This document shows positions 8,037 through 60,515 of a DNA stretch of 64,000 nt, piece by piece (position 1 is the first letter of the stretch; each line of letters opens with the position of its first letter). A program made the translations under genes and the position numbers. The notes beneath the pieces were generated by a model that saw nothing but the letters and a program-made list of their open reading frames with translations, made no database searches and was not told the origin of the DNA. This stretch comes from Chloroflexi bacterium 54-19 (GTDB lineage Bacteria; Chloroflexota; Chloroflexia; Chloroheliales; Chloroheliaceae): contig MKTJ01000036.1 of assembly GCA_001898225.1 (NCBI GenBank), positions 218,893-282,892 on the forward strand, given 5' to 3'.

Positions 8037-8518
8037 TTACTCGCCTCCTCTTAAATTGTTAGTAACCATAGTTAAAGTGCTTGCTTTCTAGCCTACTATC
8101 TAATGGTTTTCTCAAAACTTCCTGATAAATAATTTTTTGGTTTTACCCTTACGGCTTTTTATTACCTGCCGCGTTCCCGGACGCTGGCAAAATCATTCCG
8201 GCAATCGCCCATGTTATAATGCCCCAGGTAAATAAATTACCGAAACCATATATACTATGATAGACGGTTTTCTAAAATTTAGTGTTTAATTTACGTTATA
8301 ATCTATAAGCAAGAACTGTGCCAGCCCTTTTTATAGCATAATCGGTGCCACGATACTAACTTCTGGCTAATCTTTTGTCTAACCGGCGCCAGGGGATTGC
8401 TAACAATTTAACGGGCAAATATGCTAAACTTTAGCCCGTTGTATACTGCCAAAATCTTTTAAATCCGGTAATTTTAACCCTTACTTCCGGCGCTTTACGC
8501 CGCTATTCTCAAACAATT

Positions 8519-23223: not shown

Positions 23224-24495
23224 CTAACCCTTGAGAATCAAACGGGCGGCTTTCTCGCCACTAATCATGGTGGCGTTGATACTGCTGGCCTCGGTGAATT
23301 CGGCGGCGAAAAATAGACCCGGTTGTCCGGAACGGTTGGCGGGTAGAGTCGGGTGAATACCGGGCGGCTGGGCGAATTGGCCATACGGAATCCGGTAGAG
23401 GGCCAGCGGTTTGTAACCTTCCAGGGCCGTTTCGGCGCGAGTATCACCTTTGAAAATACGCTTTAAATCAGCCAGCCCTTTTTGATAAAGAATTTCGTCA
23501 CTTTCATCAGGCACACCCAGGACGGTGCAGGAGAGCAGATGCTGACCGGAGGGGGCGTGTTCGGGTGAAATGTTACTAACCAGTACGAGATTATTGATAA
23601 AAGGGTCCGGGTTCGCATTGAGGACCAGTTTTTTGCCTGGATAAAGTGGAGCCGACCCGCGATAATAAAGATTGATGGTGCTGGTCCGGCCCTCGGGCAT
23701 GGGTAGCCCGGTCAGGCGGGCCGCTTCCGGTGCGGGGGTCGAAATGACCACGACATCCCCCGTTACCATCTCACCGTCTGCCAGTTTGGCCCCGGTATAA
23801 CGTCCCGCGTTATCCTTTACCAGTTCGCCCACTTTTGAATTGAGGCGGATTGCCTCCCGGTTGAACAGTTCGGCGGCAATTTGCTCCGGTATCCGGCTCA
23901 TCCCGGCGGCAGGGATAGTCGTCCGACCCTGGCTGAGCATCTTGAAGTCAAACTTAAAAGCTTTCGCGCTGGTCGTGAGACTATCGTCCAAATAAACCCC
24001 ACCAAAGAAAGGCCGCACAAAATTATTGATATATTTGTCGGAAAAACCCTTTTGCCTGAGAAATTGGGCGGTGGTGGTATCCGGCCCGGCAATAGTGGCG
24101 CCGATAGTCTGGCGGACCAGGTTGGCTGCCAGGAGTCCGGTCTTGATTTTATCGCCTAGGGTCACGACCGGGGCCAGGGCCGAAGGCACCGCCGTCAGGG
24201 GGTCGCGCAACGGGTCGCTCAGGGTAAAGCGCTGATCATCTTTAGCGATAATCGCTCCGGGGTCAAAGGTTTGTAAATCAAGTTGAGCAAAGTCCAACTG
24301 GCGTCTGGCGGCAGGGTAGGCTGTAAACAAGACCTGGAAGCCGCGTTCCAGGATAAACCCGTCCACTTTATCGGAGCGGACCCGGCCACCGACGCCATCG
24401 CTTGCTTCCAGAATTTCGACGGTATGTCCAGCTCGTTGAAGTATCCGCCCACACACCAGGCCACCTAACCCGGCCCCCACAATTACAATTTTCAA
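23224..24495 (-). CDS. NAD(P)/FAD-dependent oxidoreductase (amine oxidase/phytoene desaturase-like)
   Basis: KIVIVGAGLGGLVCGRILQRAGHTVEILEASDGVGGRVRSD Rossmann motif; C-terminal GLFFAAEFTEASSINATMISGEKAARLIL. Confidence 0.88.
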   Translation of the reverse strand: MKIVIVGAGLGGLVCGRILQRAGHTVEILEASDGVGGRVRSDKVDGFILERGFQVLFTAYPAARRQLDFAQLDLQTFDPGAIIAKDDQRFTLSDPLRDPLTAVPSALAPVVTLGDKIKTGLLAANLVRQTIGATIAGPDTTTAQFLRQKGFSDKYINNFVRPFFGGVYLDDSLTTSAKAFKFDFKMLSQGRTTIPAAGMSRIPEQIAAELFNREAIRLNSKVGELVKDNAGRYTGAKLADGEMVTGDVVVISTPAPEAARLTGLPMPEGRTSTINLYYRGSAPLYPGKKLVLNANPDPFINNLVLVSNISPEHAPSGQHLLSCTVLGVPDESDEILYQKGLADLKRIFKGDTRAETALEGYKPLALYRIPYGQFAQPPGIHPTLPANRSGQPGLFFAAEFTEASSINATMISGEKAARLILKG

Positions 24496-24887
24496 GTTTC
24501 CTTTTCCTGTTCTTAAATCTCTATTACTGATCAGTTGTACATTGAATCGAGATTCCTCGCCAAAATCGCACTCGGAGAGCGAAACAAATTAGCAAGCCTC
24601 CCCATCAAATCTAATAAGCAAGCTCTGGGCCAATTATACCTTTAGCAAACCTGGGAAGAATAAAATTTTGGGGGTAAGTGGTTTAAGGCTTTGTGATTTT
24701 TAACAACTTTTATTATTTTTATTGCAATATCAATAATATGTGATATTATAGCAATAAATATTAATATTAGTCATTCCGATATTGAAAATCTTAAGTCCCT
24801 GTTTGCCAGGTATCGGCTTTCTTTGGTTTTGCCCGAAATTCTGCTTCTCGAAAGCCGGACCGGTAGAGAAAAAGTGTGGTTAATGTG

Positions 24888-46964: not shown

Positions 46965-47696
46965 ATGATAATAACAATAGGAAAAGGTGTAAATATAACC
47001 GCCAGCGAAATAAACAAAAAGGACAGCCCCATAACTACCCTGACGGTCTTTCATTTTGCAAAAAGAAACCGCTTCTGGGCTTTTGCGCAGATGGGCCGGG
47101 CCGGGCGAAAGCTAAAACAGGTGGACGGGTTACGTTTTTATAAAATGCTGGGGTCAGGCCGGGGCAAGGTTTTTTCGTTGCGGCCCGACTGGTCGCGATA
47201 CGCATTGCTGGGGGTATGGGACAGCGAGGAAGTTGCCCGCGAGTTTTTCGAAAATTCGGCTTTTATAAAAAATTATCGCCAGCAGGCCGAGCGGATAGCT
47301 ACCGTTAAATTACGGACCATCTCGGCACACGGACTCTGGGACGGCCAGAACCCGTTTTTGCCACCGGGCGAAAGCTACAAAGGAGGTCAGGTTGCCGTAC
47401 TGACGCGGGCCAGCATCCGGTTAAACCGGTTGGTAGCTTTCTGGCGGCAAGCGGCCACGGTCAACCGCCAATTCGAAAAGACCCCCGGCTACCATTCTTC
47501 AATCGGTATCGGGGAAGCGCCATTCGTGCGGCAGGCTACTTTTTCAATCTGGGAAAATCTTGAAGCGGTCAAAGAGTTCGCGTACGGAGCGAACGAACAC
47601 AGGCAGACCATCCAGCGGGTGCGAGAGGAAGGCTGGTACGGCGAGGAGCTTTTCGCCCGCTTTGCCGTGATTGAGCTAGACCAGCCTTTCCCCTGA
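46965..47696 (+). CDS. Spheroidene monooxygenase (CrtA)-like protein
   Basis: TVFHFAKRNRFWAFAQMGRAGRKLKQVDGLRFYKMLGSGRGKVFSLRPDWSRYALLGVWDSEEVAREFFENS; GYHSSIGIGEAPFVRQATFSIWEN. Confidence 0.8.
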   Translation: MIITIGKGVNITASEINKKDSPITTLTVFHFAKRNRFWAFAQMGRAGRKLKQVDGLRFYKMLGSGRGKVFSLRPDWSRYALLGVWDSEEVAREFFENSAFIKNYRQQAERIATVKLRTISAHGLWDGQNPFLPPGESYKGGQVAVLTRASIRLNRLVAFWRQAATVNRQFEKTPGYHSSIGIGEAPFVRQATFSIWENLEAVKEFAYGANEHRQTIQRVREEGWYGEELFARFAVIELDQPFP

Positions 47697-47705
47697 TTAC
47701 AACAT

Positions 47706-48230
47706 TTAGTCGGCCTCGTCGCCTTCGAGGTCGGAGTCGGTGCCTTCTACGCCGTAGCTGCCTTCCTCGTCCTCGTTTTCCTCGAAGTTAAAATCGGCAT
47801 CTTCCTCGTATTCGTTTTCGCCTATATCAACCCCCAGGGCCGACTGGACTTCGTCATCCGGGTTAGCGCCACCTTCAAAACCCTCGGCAGCGTCACCAAG
47901 GCTCAGATAGCCGCCACCGTCAATTTCGTTGCCGGTATCGGGGCCAATATCGGCATCCTCGCTGTCCTGGTCATAACCGACGCTAAAGCCGGGTTCGATG
48001 TGCATCCCGATGTCGTCAGCTACCCCGGTCGAACCCTGCAAGGTCGTGTCGTCTCCGCCAGGGCCGGACGAACCGGAATTTTCATCGTATTCGCCCCGGT
48101 GGTGGGCGAAGCTGTGGTCGAAACCGATTTTGCCGACATTGCCGTGCAAATCGGCGGAATCGACCCCGACATCGCCAAGCTGGCTATCGAGCTCATCATT
48201 TTCCTGGAAATCTTCTCTTTCCTGTGACAT
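47706..48230 (-). CDS. Hypothetical highly acidic Gly/Asp/Glu-rich protein
   Basis: Full ORF with AAAGGAGAAAGG upstream of ATG; low-complexity acidic composition, so coding call rests on RBS and promoter context. Confidence 0.65.
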   Translation of the reverse strand: MSQEREDFQENDELDSQLGDVGVDSADLHGNVGKIGFDHSFAHHRGEYDENSGSSGPGGDDTTLQGSTGVADDIGMHIEPGFSVGYDQDSEDADIGPDTGNEIDGGGYLSLGDAAEGFEGGANPDDEVQSALGVDIGENEYEEDADFNFEENEDEEGSYGVEGTDSDLEGDEAD

Positions 48231-48266
48231 TTTTAATCCTTTCTCCTTTGCCTTTACCGTAGAGTT

Positions 48267-48282
48267 TGCAACTTATGTGCCA
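48267..48282 (-). promoter_or_regulatory. Sigma-54 (-24/-12) promoter TGGCACATAAGTTGCA
   Basis: Exact TGGCAC-N5-TTGCW on the minus strand, about 37 nt upstream of the ATG at 48230. Confidence 0.65.
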
Positions 48283-48475
48283 CTGGCTGCCAGTGTCAAA
48301 ATGCTTTCCGGGCTTCCTTGTTGAACCCAGTATACACCCTAGATTAACTCTTTACTTTGTCAAAATCCGGGGAGCTTGAAACAAAGTAAAAACGCCCCCA
48401 GCCCGGCTAAACCAGGGGGGTTTAAAAACCCTGGTAAAAACCGGATTGAAGGCGTTTCTGGAAAAATCTTAAATC

Positions 48476-49243
48476 TTACCGCCGGTCCGAATAGTTCTGG
48501 TTAGGTTGGTTAGGAGGATAATTCGGGTTCGGGTAGCTCTGATTTTGATAATTCGGGTTCTGGCCCTGGTAGGTCTGTTGCGGATAGCCCTGGTTCTGGT
48601 AATTCGGGTTAGGATAGTTCTGGGCCGGGCGCAAGGGCTGGAGCTGGTCCTGATTCTGACCATGGATATTAGCCTTGGCAGGCGGGGTTTCCGGCGCTTT
48701 GGCTTCGGGTTTCTCCAACCAGACCGGCAAGGCGGCTACTATCAAAGGTATCCCGCCCACCAGGCCAAAAATCAGGGGCGAATAGGTGTCCAGAAATGTG
48801 ATACTGACGACCTGGCGGCTCGAAAGTTCCAGCAGGGCACCGACTAAAAGATGGACCCCGGCGACAATCAAGAAACGTTTATCGACCTGGAAAGCGGTCG
48901 CGATATAGCCGATGCCCAGCAGAACCAGCCAGACCCCCGACAGGTCGCCAAAGAGGTCAATGTGCGCGCCGTTGTCGAACTTGACCACGTAATAGGTAAA
49001 GAGCCAACCAGCCACCATCAGGCCAGCCCAGATGCCGAGGTTGAAGCCGAGACCCTTCACCATCGTGACGAGTTGGGCCGCTATTCCCAGGACGGTTATA
49101 CCGACCCACAGGAGGAGGGTAAAGTCGGCGCTGAGATTAAACCACTGGTTGATAACACCGCCCAGGAAAATCAATAAACCCCAACTACCCAGCAAAATAG
49201 TGACTTTCGGGACGCGCAGGTCCAATTCCGTACTGTTAAACAT
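48476..49243 (-). CDS. Membrane protein with Asn/Pro/Tyr/Gln-rich repetitive C-terminal tail
   Basis: Several TM segments, then NYPNPNYQNQGYPQQTYQGQNPNYQNQSYPNPNYPPNQPNQNY. Confidence 0.75.
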   Translation of the reverse strand: MFNSTELDLRVPKVTILLGSWGLLIFLGGVINQWFNLSADFTLLLWVGITVLGIAAQLVTMVKGLGFNLGIWAGLMVAGWLFTYYVVKFDNGAHIDLFGDLSGVWLVLLGIGYIATAFQVDKRFLIVAGVHLLVGALLELSSRQVVSITFLDTYSPLIFGLVGGIPLIVAALPVWLEKPEAKAPETPPAKANIHGQNQDQLQPLRPAQNYPNPNYQNQGYPQQTYQGQNPNYQNQSYPNPNYPPNQPNQNYSDRR

Positions 49244-58227: not shown

Positions 58228-60132
58228 ATGGATGTATCCGCCAAAAAGAATCTTTTTGCCGATGTGGACCCGACTAAACCAGCTACCAACCCGGCGACCG
58301 AAATAGCCGCCCTGAAAGAACGGGTTGCCGAACTTGAAGCCCTGCTTCGTGAAAAAAACGAAGCCAATTTATCACCTTTTCGCTTCGAAAAAGCTTCTTC
58401 AAAACCCAACCAGGAGGTCTGGCAGCGTGAAAGTGACGAACAGGTCCGGTTCGCCCTGGAAGCCGCCGGTATCGGCACCTGGGAATGGAACGTAATAAAA
58501 AATGAAGTCAAGTGGTCGGCTAATATGGCCGGAATTTTTGGCCTGACCAACGGCGCTACTCCCCAGACCTATGATGAATACCTGGACCTTATTCATCCCG
58601 GCGACCGCCAGGACTTTGTCCAGGCCGTTCGCCAGGCCATAAAAGATAAAGAGAATTTTGAAGTCCAATTCCGGGTTATCCGCGCCGGGGGCGCCTATCA
58701 CTGGAACATTGGCAAGGGTAAAATAATTACCGGGGATAACGGCCAACCGCTGCGCCTCCTGGGAGTAATTTACGACATAAACGATTTCAAACATACCACC
58801 GAAGCCCTCCGCTTCCTGGTGGATGCCTCCCACACCCTTACTTCTTCGCTCGACTACGAGACAAACCTGCAACAACTGGCTGCTTTAGCCGTCCCCAGGT
58901 TTGCCGACTGGTGCATGGTCTTCGTCCAGGAAACCGACGGAGAAATAAAACAGGTGGCGGTGCGCCATTCCGACCCGGCCCGCACCGCCTGGGCCCTGGA
59001 ATTTCAGAGCCATTATCCTTACAATACCCGGATTGGCCGCTCCCTTCTTAAGGAGATTATCCAGGTGGCCCAGACCGGCCAACCCCAGTATTTGCCCGAA
59101 ATGCCCGATGGATTGTTGAAGGGAGTCGCTATAGACCCGGTCCATCTCGAATGGATGCGCGAACTGGGACCGCGTTCAAAAATAGCGGTACCCCTTGTCG
59201 CCCGCAACCGGATTTTCGGGGTGATTTCTTTTATCACCAGCCACGAGTCGGGACGCAACTACACCCTGGCAGATTTCGAACTGGCCCAGGAATTGGCTCG
59301 CCAGGTCGGTCAGGCTATTGACAATTCCTGGCTCTACCGGCAGGCCCAGGAATCTATCGAAATCCAACGCCAGCTCGACAGGCTCAAAGACCAGTTTTTA
59401 TCTATCGCCAGTCACGAACTCCGCACCCCCCTGACAACCATCAAAGGATACTCGCAGATTCTTCAACGCGACTTGCTGCGTCTAAGAACCGGAAACCAAC
59501 CTGTTTTAGACCAATCTACTTCCAGGAGTGTGCGTATCCTCTCGAACCTGGTCGGCCAGGTCGGACGGATGGAAATTCTCATAAACGAAATGCTCGATAT
59601 TTCCCGGATTCAAAGCGGCCAATTTCATTTGAAGTTAACCGGAGGGATAATTCTTAATGAGGTCGTGCGGAGAATTGTCGAACAGCAGCAAGACGCCGAC
59701 CCCGACCGGCCTATTTTATTCCAGCCCAACACCTTTGAATTAGAAGGTATGTGGGATGAAAACCGCCTGGAACAGGTCATAAACAATCTTATCAGCAACG
59801 CCATCAAATATAGCGAACCGGGGAAACCGGTGGAAGTGGGGGTAGGCTACGCTACTATCACCAATGAGGCCGTAGTCTGGGTCCGCGACGAGGGCATCGG
59901 TATCAGCGCTGAACACCAGAATCAAATCTTTGACCGCTTTTATCGCGTCCGAACACCCATGAACGTCAGCGTGGATGGTCTTGGCCTGGGCCTGTATATC
60001 AGTTTCGAAACCATCAAGCAGCATGGCGGTCATATGTGGCTCGAAAGCGCTCCTGGCGAGGGCAGCACTTTTTATTTCTCATTACCTTTACCGGATGAAG
60101 CTCGCCCAGGTGGCACAGAGGTTGCTCCTTAA
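58228..60132 (+). CDS. PAS/GAF sensor histidine kinase
   Basis: PAS-like region, GAF-like region, HisKA FLSIASHELRTPLTTIKGYSQIL, HATPase N/G boxes (NNLISNAIKYS, VRDEGIGIS, GLGLGLYISFETIKQHGGHMWLES). Confidence 0.95.
   Translation: MDVSAKKNLFADVDPTKPATNPATEIAALKERVAELEALLREKNEANLSPFRFEKASSKPNQEVWQRESDEQVRFALEAAGIGTWEWNVIKNEVKWSANMAGIFGLTNGATPQTYDEYLDLIHPGDRQDFVQAVRQAIKDKENFEVQFRVIRAGGAYHWNIGKGKIITGDNGQPLRLLGVIYDINDFKHTTEALRFLVDASHTLTSSLDYETNLQQLAALAVPRFADWCMVFVQETDGEIKQVAVRHSDPARTAWALEFQSHYPYNTRIGRSLLKEIIQVAQTGQPQYLPEMPDGLLKGVAIDPVHLEWMRELGPRSKIAVPLVARNRIFGVISFITSHESGRNYTLADFELAQELARQVGQAIDNSWLYRQAQESIEIQRQLDRLKDQFLSIASHELRTPLTTIKGYSQILQRDLLRLRTGNQPVLDQSTSRSVRILSNLVGQVGRMEILINEMLDISRIQSGQFHLKLTGGIILNEVVRRIVEQQQDADPDRPILFQPNTFELEGMWDENRLEQVINNLISNAIKYSEPGKPVEVGVGYATITNEAVVWVRDEGIGISAEHQNQIFDRFYRVRTPMNVSVDGLGLGLYISFETIKQHGGHMWLESAPGEGSTFYFSLPLPDEARPGGTEVAP
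60111..60126 (+). promoter_or_regulatory. Sigma-54 (-24/-12) promoter TGGCACAGAGGTTGCT
   Basis: Exact TGGCAC-N5-TTGCW at the 3' end of the histidine-kinase ORF, 63 nt upstream of the ATG at 60189. Confidence 0.55.
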
Positions 60133-60188: not shown

Positions 60189-60515
60189 ATGGCAACAGCC
60201 GAAGAACATATGGCACAGCTTTTAAAGCAGCTAAAGAAAGACCCCGGCCTGGTCGAGGAATTGCCGGGCAAGGAAGGGCATATCGTCCATAGCGCCCTGG
60301 CGGGACAGTCAGTCTTTGAAATCGCCCAGGCCAACCGGATGAGCGAGGAAGCGGTCTGGGGCGTCTTGCGAAGCGCGGCCCGGAGCGCCAGCGGCCAGAA
60401 AATTACCCCGGTCGAAAGCGGCGGTTTCGGCAGCGATACCGACCCTGGCGTGAACGGCGGCTATGGGGATACCGGTTTTGGCAGCCTCGAAGTCGAACCG
60501 GAGCAAGGGGGATAA
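60189..60515 (+). CDS. Hypothetical small protein with Gly/Asp-rich C-terminal tail
   Basis: AAAAGGAG RBS before ATG; helical N-terminus with HTH-like SVFEIAQANRMSEEAVWGVLRSAAR. Confidence 0.75.
   Translation: MATAEEHMAQLLKQLKKDPGLVEELPGKEGHIVHSALAGQSVFEIAQANRMSEEAVWGVLRSAARSASGQKITPVESGGFGSDTDPGVNGGYGDTGFGSLEVEPEQGG

Follow-up and report, generated by a model that had tools for sequence, protein, structure and literature searches.

Introduction

Sigma-54 promoters depend on rpoN, and their transcripts begin some 12 nt after the GC. Chlamydia has one sigma-54 and one NtrC-type activator, and the phage-shock system is a sigma-54 envelope stress response run by PspF, an activator that lacks a receiver domain and serves few operons. 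CsbD, YflT and GlsB/YeaQ are members of the sigma-B and sigma-S general stress regulons (Bacillus, E. coli), and to our knowledge general stress is normally the task of factors from the sigma-70 family and not of sigma-54. Sigma-54 itself is already known in some Chloroflexi (PMC3162934), and CtcC is the activator named for the Chlamydia sigma-54 regulon (PMC7482065).

The locus described here lies in a 64-kb stretch of DNA (the window, analysed over its whole length) from a 9.25-Mb draft genome of the order Chloroheliales (formerly 54-19; Chloroflexota), in the same family as Ca. Chlorohelix. It resembles the sigma-54/NtrC-type systems in its exact -24/-12 elements, its single rpoN with AID, CBD and DBD, its activator built of receiver, AAA+ and Fis-type HTH domains and the sigma-54 sites ahead of rpoN itself; its targets, however, belong to general stress and not to nitrogen use, motility or secretion, and k-mer and dyad searches found no enhancer site. 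The likeness to the CtcC regulon extends to a small gene set that includes membrane-linked genes, with one sigma-54 and one activator, but the present set belongs to Chloroflexota and contains stress genes, with no secretion effectors seen. As in the phage-shock system, sigma-54 would serve an envelope stress response, though here through an activator that does have a receiver domain and at many dispersed genes. The target families overlap with those of the sigma-B and sigma-S regulons (CsbD, YflT, Transgly_assoc), but the factor is sigma-54 with an ATP-dependent activator instead of a member of the sigma-70 family.

The window's genome (G000) was compared with two other species of the same genus (G001, G002), a further rpoN-bearing relative (G003) and a closed, rpoN-less genome of the same family (G004), taken as Ca. 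Chlorohelix. The described Ca. Chlorohelix allophototropha L227-S17 has chromosomes of 2.96 Mb and 2.45 Mb and a chromid of 375 kb (PMC10972752).

Table 1. Features of the window that bear on the sigma-54 promoters, with the evidence for each.
Feature	Position	Strand	Evidence
rpoN (sigma-54), sole copy in the genome	6561..8036	-	AID, core-binding and DNA-binding domains; orthologues in G001-G003, absent from G004
Exact sigma-54 site ahead of rpoN, at a distance of 271 nt	8308..8323	-	One mismatch in G001, exact in G002
One-mismatch sigma-54 site TGGCACCGATTATGCT, 27 nt before the exact one	8335..8350	-	Tandem pair in all three congeners
Acidic 174-aa protein gene	47706..48230	-	ORF; two congeners have orthologues of 72-78% identity
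Predicted 5' leader with ribosome-binding site AAAGGAGAAAGG	48231..48256	-	Sequence
Sigma-54 promoter TGGCACATAAGTTGCA of the acidic-protein gene	48267..48282	-	Exact match; 94-100% identical in two congeners
Hairpin resembling a terminator, for the upstream gene (48476-49243)	48395..48418	-	One found, 1.6 expected in shuffles
PAS-GAF histidine kinase gene, directly upstream of the 108-aa gene	58228..60132	+	Domains
Exact sigma-54 promoter TGGCACAGAGGTTGCT; overlaps the histidine-kinase gene at its 3' end	60111..60126	+	Same 16-mer ahead of the orthologue in both G001 and G002
108-aa protein gene behind TGGCACAGAGGTTGCT, no confident family	60189..60515	+	Orthologue promoters, profile searches

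Promoter and predicted leader of the acidic-protein gene

Read on the minus strand from 48282 to 48267, the sequence forms an exact -24/-12 sigma-54 element and fits TGGCACN5TTGCW (TGGCACNNNNNTTGCW), as the preliminary description of this DNA had reported. The ATG of the acidic-protein gene follows 36 nt downstream (about 37 nt had been given), and the ribosome-binding site that stands between them is also present in G002. From the usual distance between -12 and +1, transcription is predicted to start near 48256 and to give a leader of ~26 nt. A sigma-70 promoter was considered as an alternative for this gene and dropped, since a scan of 47600-48600 found none. The hairpin stands between the acidic gene and its upstream neighbour, although the evidence for it is weak in view of the number expected in shuffles (Table 1).

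At this promoter the element forms a conserved island, which is a strong footprint. The two congeners match the 16-mer at 15/16 to 16/16 positions, and their promoters (TGGCACATAAGTTGCA and TGGCACACAAGTTGCA) lie 32 nt ahead of the ATG. By contrast, the 50-100 nt preceding the element show 18-32% ungapped identity, the level of random sequence. The GG at -24, the GC at -12 and the 10 nt between them are kept in these relatives, so that the sigma-54 reading survives the test by which the preliminary description proposed to refute it, namely loss of this spacing in related genomes.

There are three exact matches in the window, not two as previously counted, the extra one being upstream of rpoN (Table 1); it seems to have been either overlooked or not taken as the site of an orphan gene. 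Dinucleotide shuffles of the 64 kb gave 0.08 matches on average and never three. Across whole genomes, exact matches alone are weak evidence, because G004, without rpoN, still has 14 of them (11 within genes and 3 outside); G000 has 18, vs 4 for the reversed pattern. The argument for the promoter therefore rests on conservation. Exact sites fall outside genes in 43/54 cases in three congeners vs 3/14 in G004 (Fisher p 9e-5), where the tally was made by inspection and only genes of ~100 aa or longer that reach well past the site were counted; an automatic tally that included short spurious ORFs gave lower intergenic numbers. A stricter pattern, TGGCACN6TGCWTTA, which adds to the element the TTA often seen after it, has 10, 12, 6 and 4 sites in G000 to G003 and 0 in G004, and its reversed form has 0, 0, 1, 0 and 0 in the five genomes. 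Since this pattern was chosen after the first sites had been seen, it is not an independent discovery, and G004 and the reversed form are its controls.

Genes behind the sites

An exact site precedes the orthologues of six genes in 3/3 congeners (the acidic protein, the 108-aa protein, an SDR, an RNase Z-like protein, an LEA-like KLDKKAAKLADQ-repeat protein and a 300-aa membrane protein) and of three more in 2/3 (a YggT-like protein, a 64-aa protein and one other). Combined, the genes behind sites include those for CsbD, YflT, GlsB/YeaQ-type membrane proteins, the LEA-like repeat protein, topoisomerase IB, PAP2, the SDR and rpoN; the RNase Z-like gene and rpoN are members that are not stress genes. 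Among the 30 strict-pattern loci examined, 7 precede a gene of the Transgly_assoc (GlsB/YeaQ) type, three of these seven proteins having been scanned and the remainder recognised by close similarity to them, and 5 precede csbD.

An independent test took the genes as the starting point. In rpoN-bearing genomes, a site with no more than one mismatch precedes 6/7 CsbD genes (7/7 at up to two mismatches) and 7/11 YflT genes, vs a background of 1.3% in random 330-nt stretches drawn from the window and 1/41 other window genes. The YflT exceptions are one group of three genes with 3-mismatch sites only and one gene without a site; G000 taken by itself gives 2/2 for CsbD (up to two mismatches) and 2/4 for YflT (up to one). 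The binomial p values (3e-11 for CsbD and 2e-11 for YflT) overstate the evidence because orthologues are not independent. A promoter common to several classic stress-protection genes is one mark of a general stress regulon, another being induction by stresses of different kinds. Since the promoter does stand ahead of such genes here, these bacteria appear to use sigma-54 for a general stress programme. The earlier suggestion that sites throughout the genome might concentrate before homologs of small orphan genes is supported: they do concentrate before a defined set, though one made up mostly of general-stress proteins and not of small orphans alone.

Several individual sites deserve mention. 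Despite having neither rpoN nor the activator, G004 carries an exact consensus at a distance of 69 nt ahead of a CsbD gene; this site may be a chance match or a relic of a lost system, and by the same token any single site can be either. On the minus strand of the window, a one-mismatch site (TGGCCCAGAGCTTGCT, 24617-24632) lies 121 nt before ORF 23224-24495, whose N-terminus resembles FAD-dependent oxidoreductases and which is a possible further member of the regulon. The KLDKKAAKLADQ-type repeat protein is 450 aa long and LEA-like in appearance; its promoter is conserved in three species, and searches of Pfam and NCBIfam gave no match. In G001, two copies of TGGCACGCAAGTTGCA lie ~200 nt apart at a contig end (L071) and a third on another contig (L039), in what looks like a local duplication; the gene behind the copies reads like a cysteine hydrolase.

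RpoN and its candidate activator

As previously stated, rpoN is encoded in the same window as the promoter. About a third of the sampled genomes of the phylum have sigma-54. The tandem sites ahead of rpoN in three congeners, with one site in G003, suggest that the gene is probably autoregulated.

G000 has one strong Sigma54_activat gene, encoding a 462-aa protein of receiver-AAA+-HTH (Fis-type) architecture with GAFTGA and the usual receiver residues. In G000-G003, rpoN and a strong gene of this kind occur once each, and both are missing from the closed genome G004. The protein resembles AtoC, NtrC and ZraR, yet it scores under every curated cut-off shown (427 bits vs 558.6 for NtrC, 456 vs 714 for AtoC), and it is therefore not an NtrC equivalog, a name reserved for scores above the curated cut-off. 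Other PF00158 matches in G000 (23-33 bits, where the true activator has 240) were rejected as sigma-54 activators, since they score far below it and the family also gives weak matches in genomes that lack sigma-54.

In G000-G003, a gene for a receiver-domain protein and then recA lie behind the activator gene, and in the three congeners recX comes after recA. The locus that carries the sole activator gene (L061, 5550-11034) includes all four of these genes, and the order activator-receiver-recA is common to four genomes of two genera. Searches for a common activator-binding motif upstream of the promoters, by k-mers and dyads, returned only AT-rich or CCGG-type background words. Footprints upstream of csbD, such as TTAATATTATGCCA and TTCTAGCTAAT, were considered as a shared enhancer site and set aside, being confined to csbD. 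Four further Chloroflexi MAGs and two loci from Caldiserica encode related activators; beside these we found only one sigma-54 site, with no convincing gene after it.

The acidic protein

The 174-aa protein has a pI of 4.05, 30.5% D/E, 1.7% K/R, 17% G, no C or W and a net charge of -50. It falls among the disordered proteins in the Uversky charge-hydropathy plot, and AlphaFold2, run on the window protein alone as a single sequence, gave a mean pLDDT of 49 with 0 residues >70, a score that a folded protein could also receive under these conditions. Searches of Pfam, NCBIfam and PDB found no relative, in keeping with the earlier impression of a protein of no recognised family, and neither did a search of the named-genome contigs. 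It turned up only in its own genus (3/61 relatives), with none elsewhere among 301 genomes of the phylum, and the family appears to be new. The convergent neighbour (46965-47696) adjoins the gene in both congeners too.

The orthologues share a conserved core, LDSQLGDVGVDSADLHGNVGKIGFDHS and the region ADDVGMHIEPGFSVGY, which suggests that the sequence and not composition alone is under selection. Hydrophilins are defined by >6% glycine and a mean hydropathy below -1. The acidic protein is like them in being glycine-rich (17-19% in three orthologues), hydrophilic and predicted to be disordered, but the hydropathy of the orthologues (-0.98, -0.75 and -0.80) misses the usual cut-off.

Discussion

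We propose, with a probability of about 0.72, that the element is a working sigma-54 promoter in a small regulon of rpoN and general-stress and envelope genes under one NtrC-type activator, and that the acidic protein is a disordered member of it. In such a regulon, RpoN-RNA polymerase would sit on the promoter as a closed complex; a stress signal would act through a kinase to phosphorylate the activator, and the phosphorylated NtrC-type protein would then remodel the sigma-54 polymerase and open the dispersed promoters. The tandem sites ahead of rpoN would boost its expression, and the output would be small proteins with a protective role. The PAS-GAF kinase encoded beside the 108-aa gene is a possible signal input, as a candidate only.

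The readings that compete with this one differ in how much of it they leave standing. If matches to so short a consensus were simply chance, none of it would hold, and the 14 exact matches in the rpoN-less G004, mostly intragenic, do give that view some footing; but it leaves unexplained a 16-mer conserved amid flanks at the random level, promoters that orthologues retain across species and strict-pattern sites that number 32 in four rpoN-bearing genomes vs 0 in G004. We reject a chance match at 48267-48282 on the conserved 16-mer and the strict-pattern counts and regard it as highly improbable, unless the conservation is owed to an overlapping element of another kind. Judged by its conservation, the element is a real, evolutionarily preserved sigma-54 promoter. 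It could also be real and belong to a cell-envelope or nutrient (e.g., nitrogen) programme, with CsbD, YflT and GlsB as side members. The set has many membrane or small envelope proteins (YggT-like, PAP2, GlsB, the 300-aa membrane protein), the activator is AtoC/NtrC/ZraR-like, though beneath all curated cut-offs shown, and Francke et al. (2011; PMC3162934) have proposed that sigma-54 controls the exterior of the bacterial cell. Such a programme is nonetheless unlikely, given that genes of the CsbD, YflT and GlsB/YeaQ type share the promoter with those for topoisomerase IB and the LEA-like protein and that no nitrogen-assimilation gene is among the targets examined.

The role of the acidic protein is a separate question. 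With its extreme charge and D/E content, it might, behind an equally real promoter, have a specific rather than a protective function, such as DNA mimicry or the sequestration of calcium or another metal. We find this doubtful: no fold is predicted and no solved structure is similar, while the conserved Gly/Asp-rich stretches would suit several roles. A soluble protectant, or an ion- or water-binding protein, is the probable function, being in line with the co-regulated genes. Taken together, the acidic protein is most likely a genus-specific, disordered output of a small sigma-54 general-stress and envelope-protection regulon with a single activator.

Each part of this system is of a known kind; the use of sigma-54 for hallmark general-stress proteins is unusual. 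A limited search of the open literature found nothing linking sigma-54 to CsbD, YflT or GlsB-type proteins in Chloroflexota, and the assignment of these general-stress genes to sigma-54 in this lineage appears to be new. A broader proposal, which we make tentatively and at somewhat less than even odds, is that throughout Chloroheliales except Ca. Chlorohelix, sigma-54 and the recA-adjacent NtrC-type activator are the master of general stress in place of sigma-B- or sigma-S-like factors, that Chlorohelix lost the system, and that the acidic protein is a lineage-specific disordered protectant.

Ca. Chlorohelix serves as a natural control because rpoN and the activator are both absent there, and with one sigma-54, one activator, a few dozen sites and this closely related natural loss, the question is directly testable. 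Little is known of stress regulation in Chloroflexota; if the proposed regulon is borne out, an ATP-dependent, activator-gated sigma factor would be in charge of a general stress programme in these bacteria.
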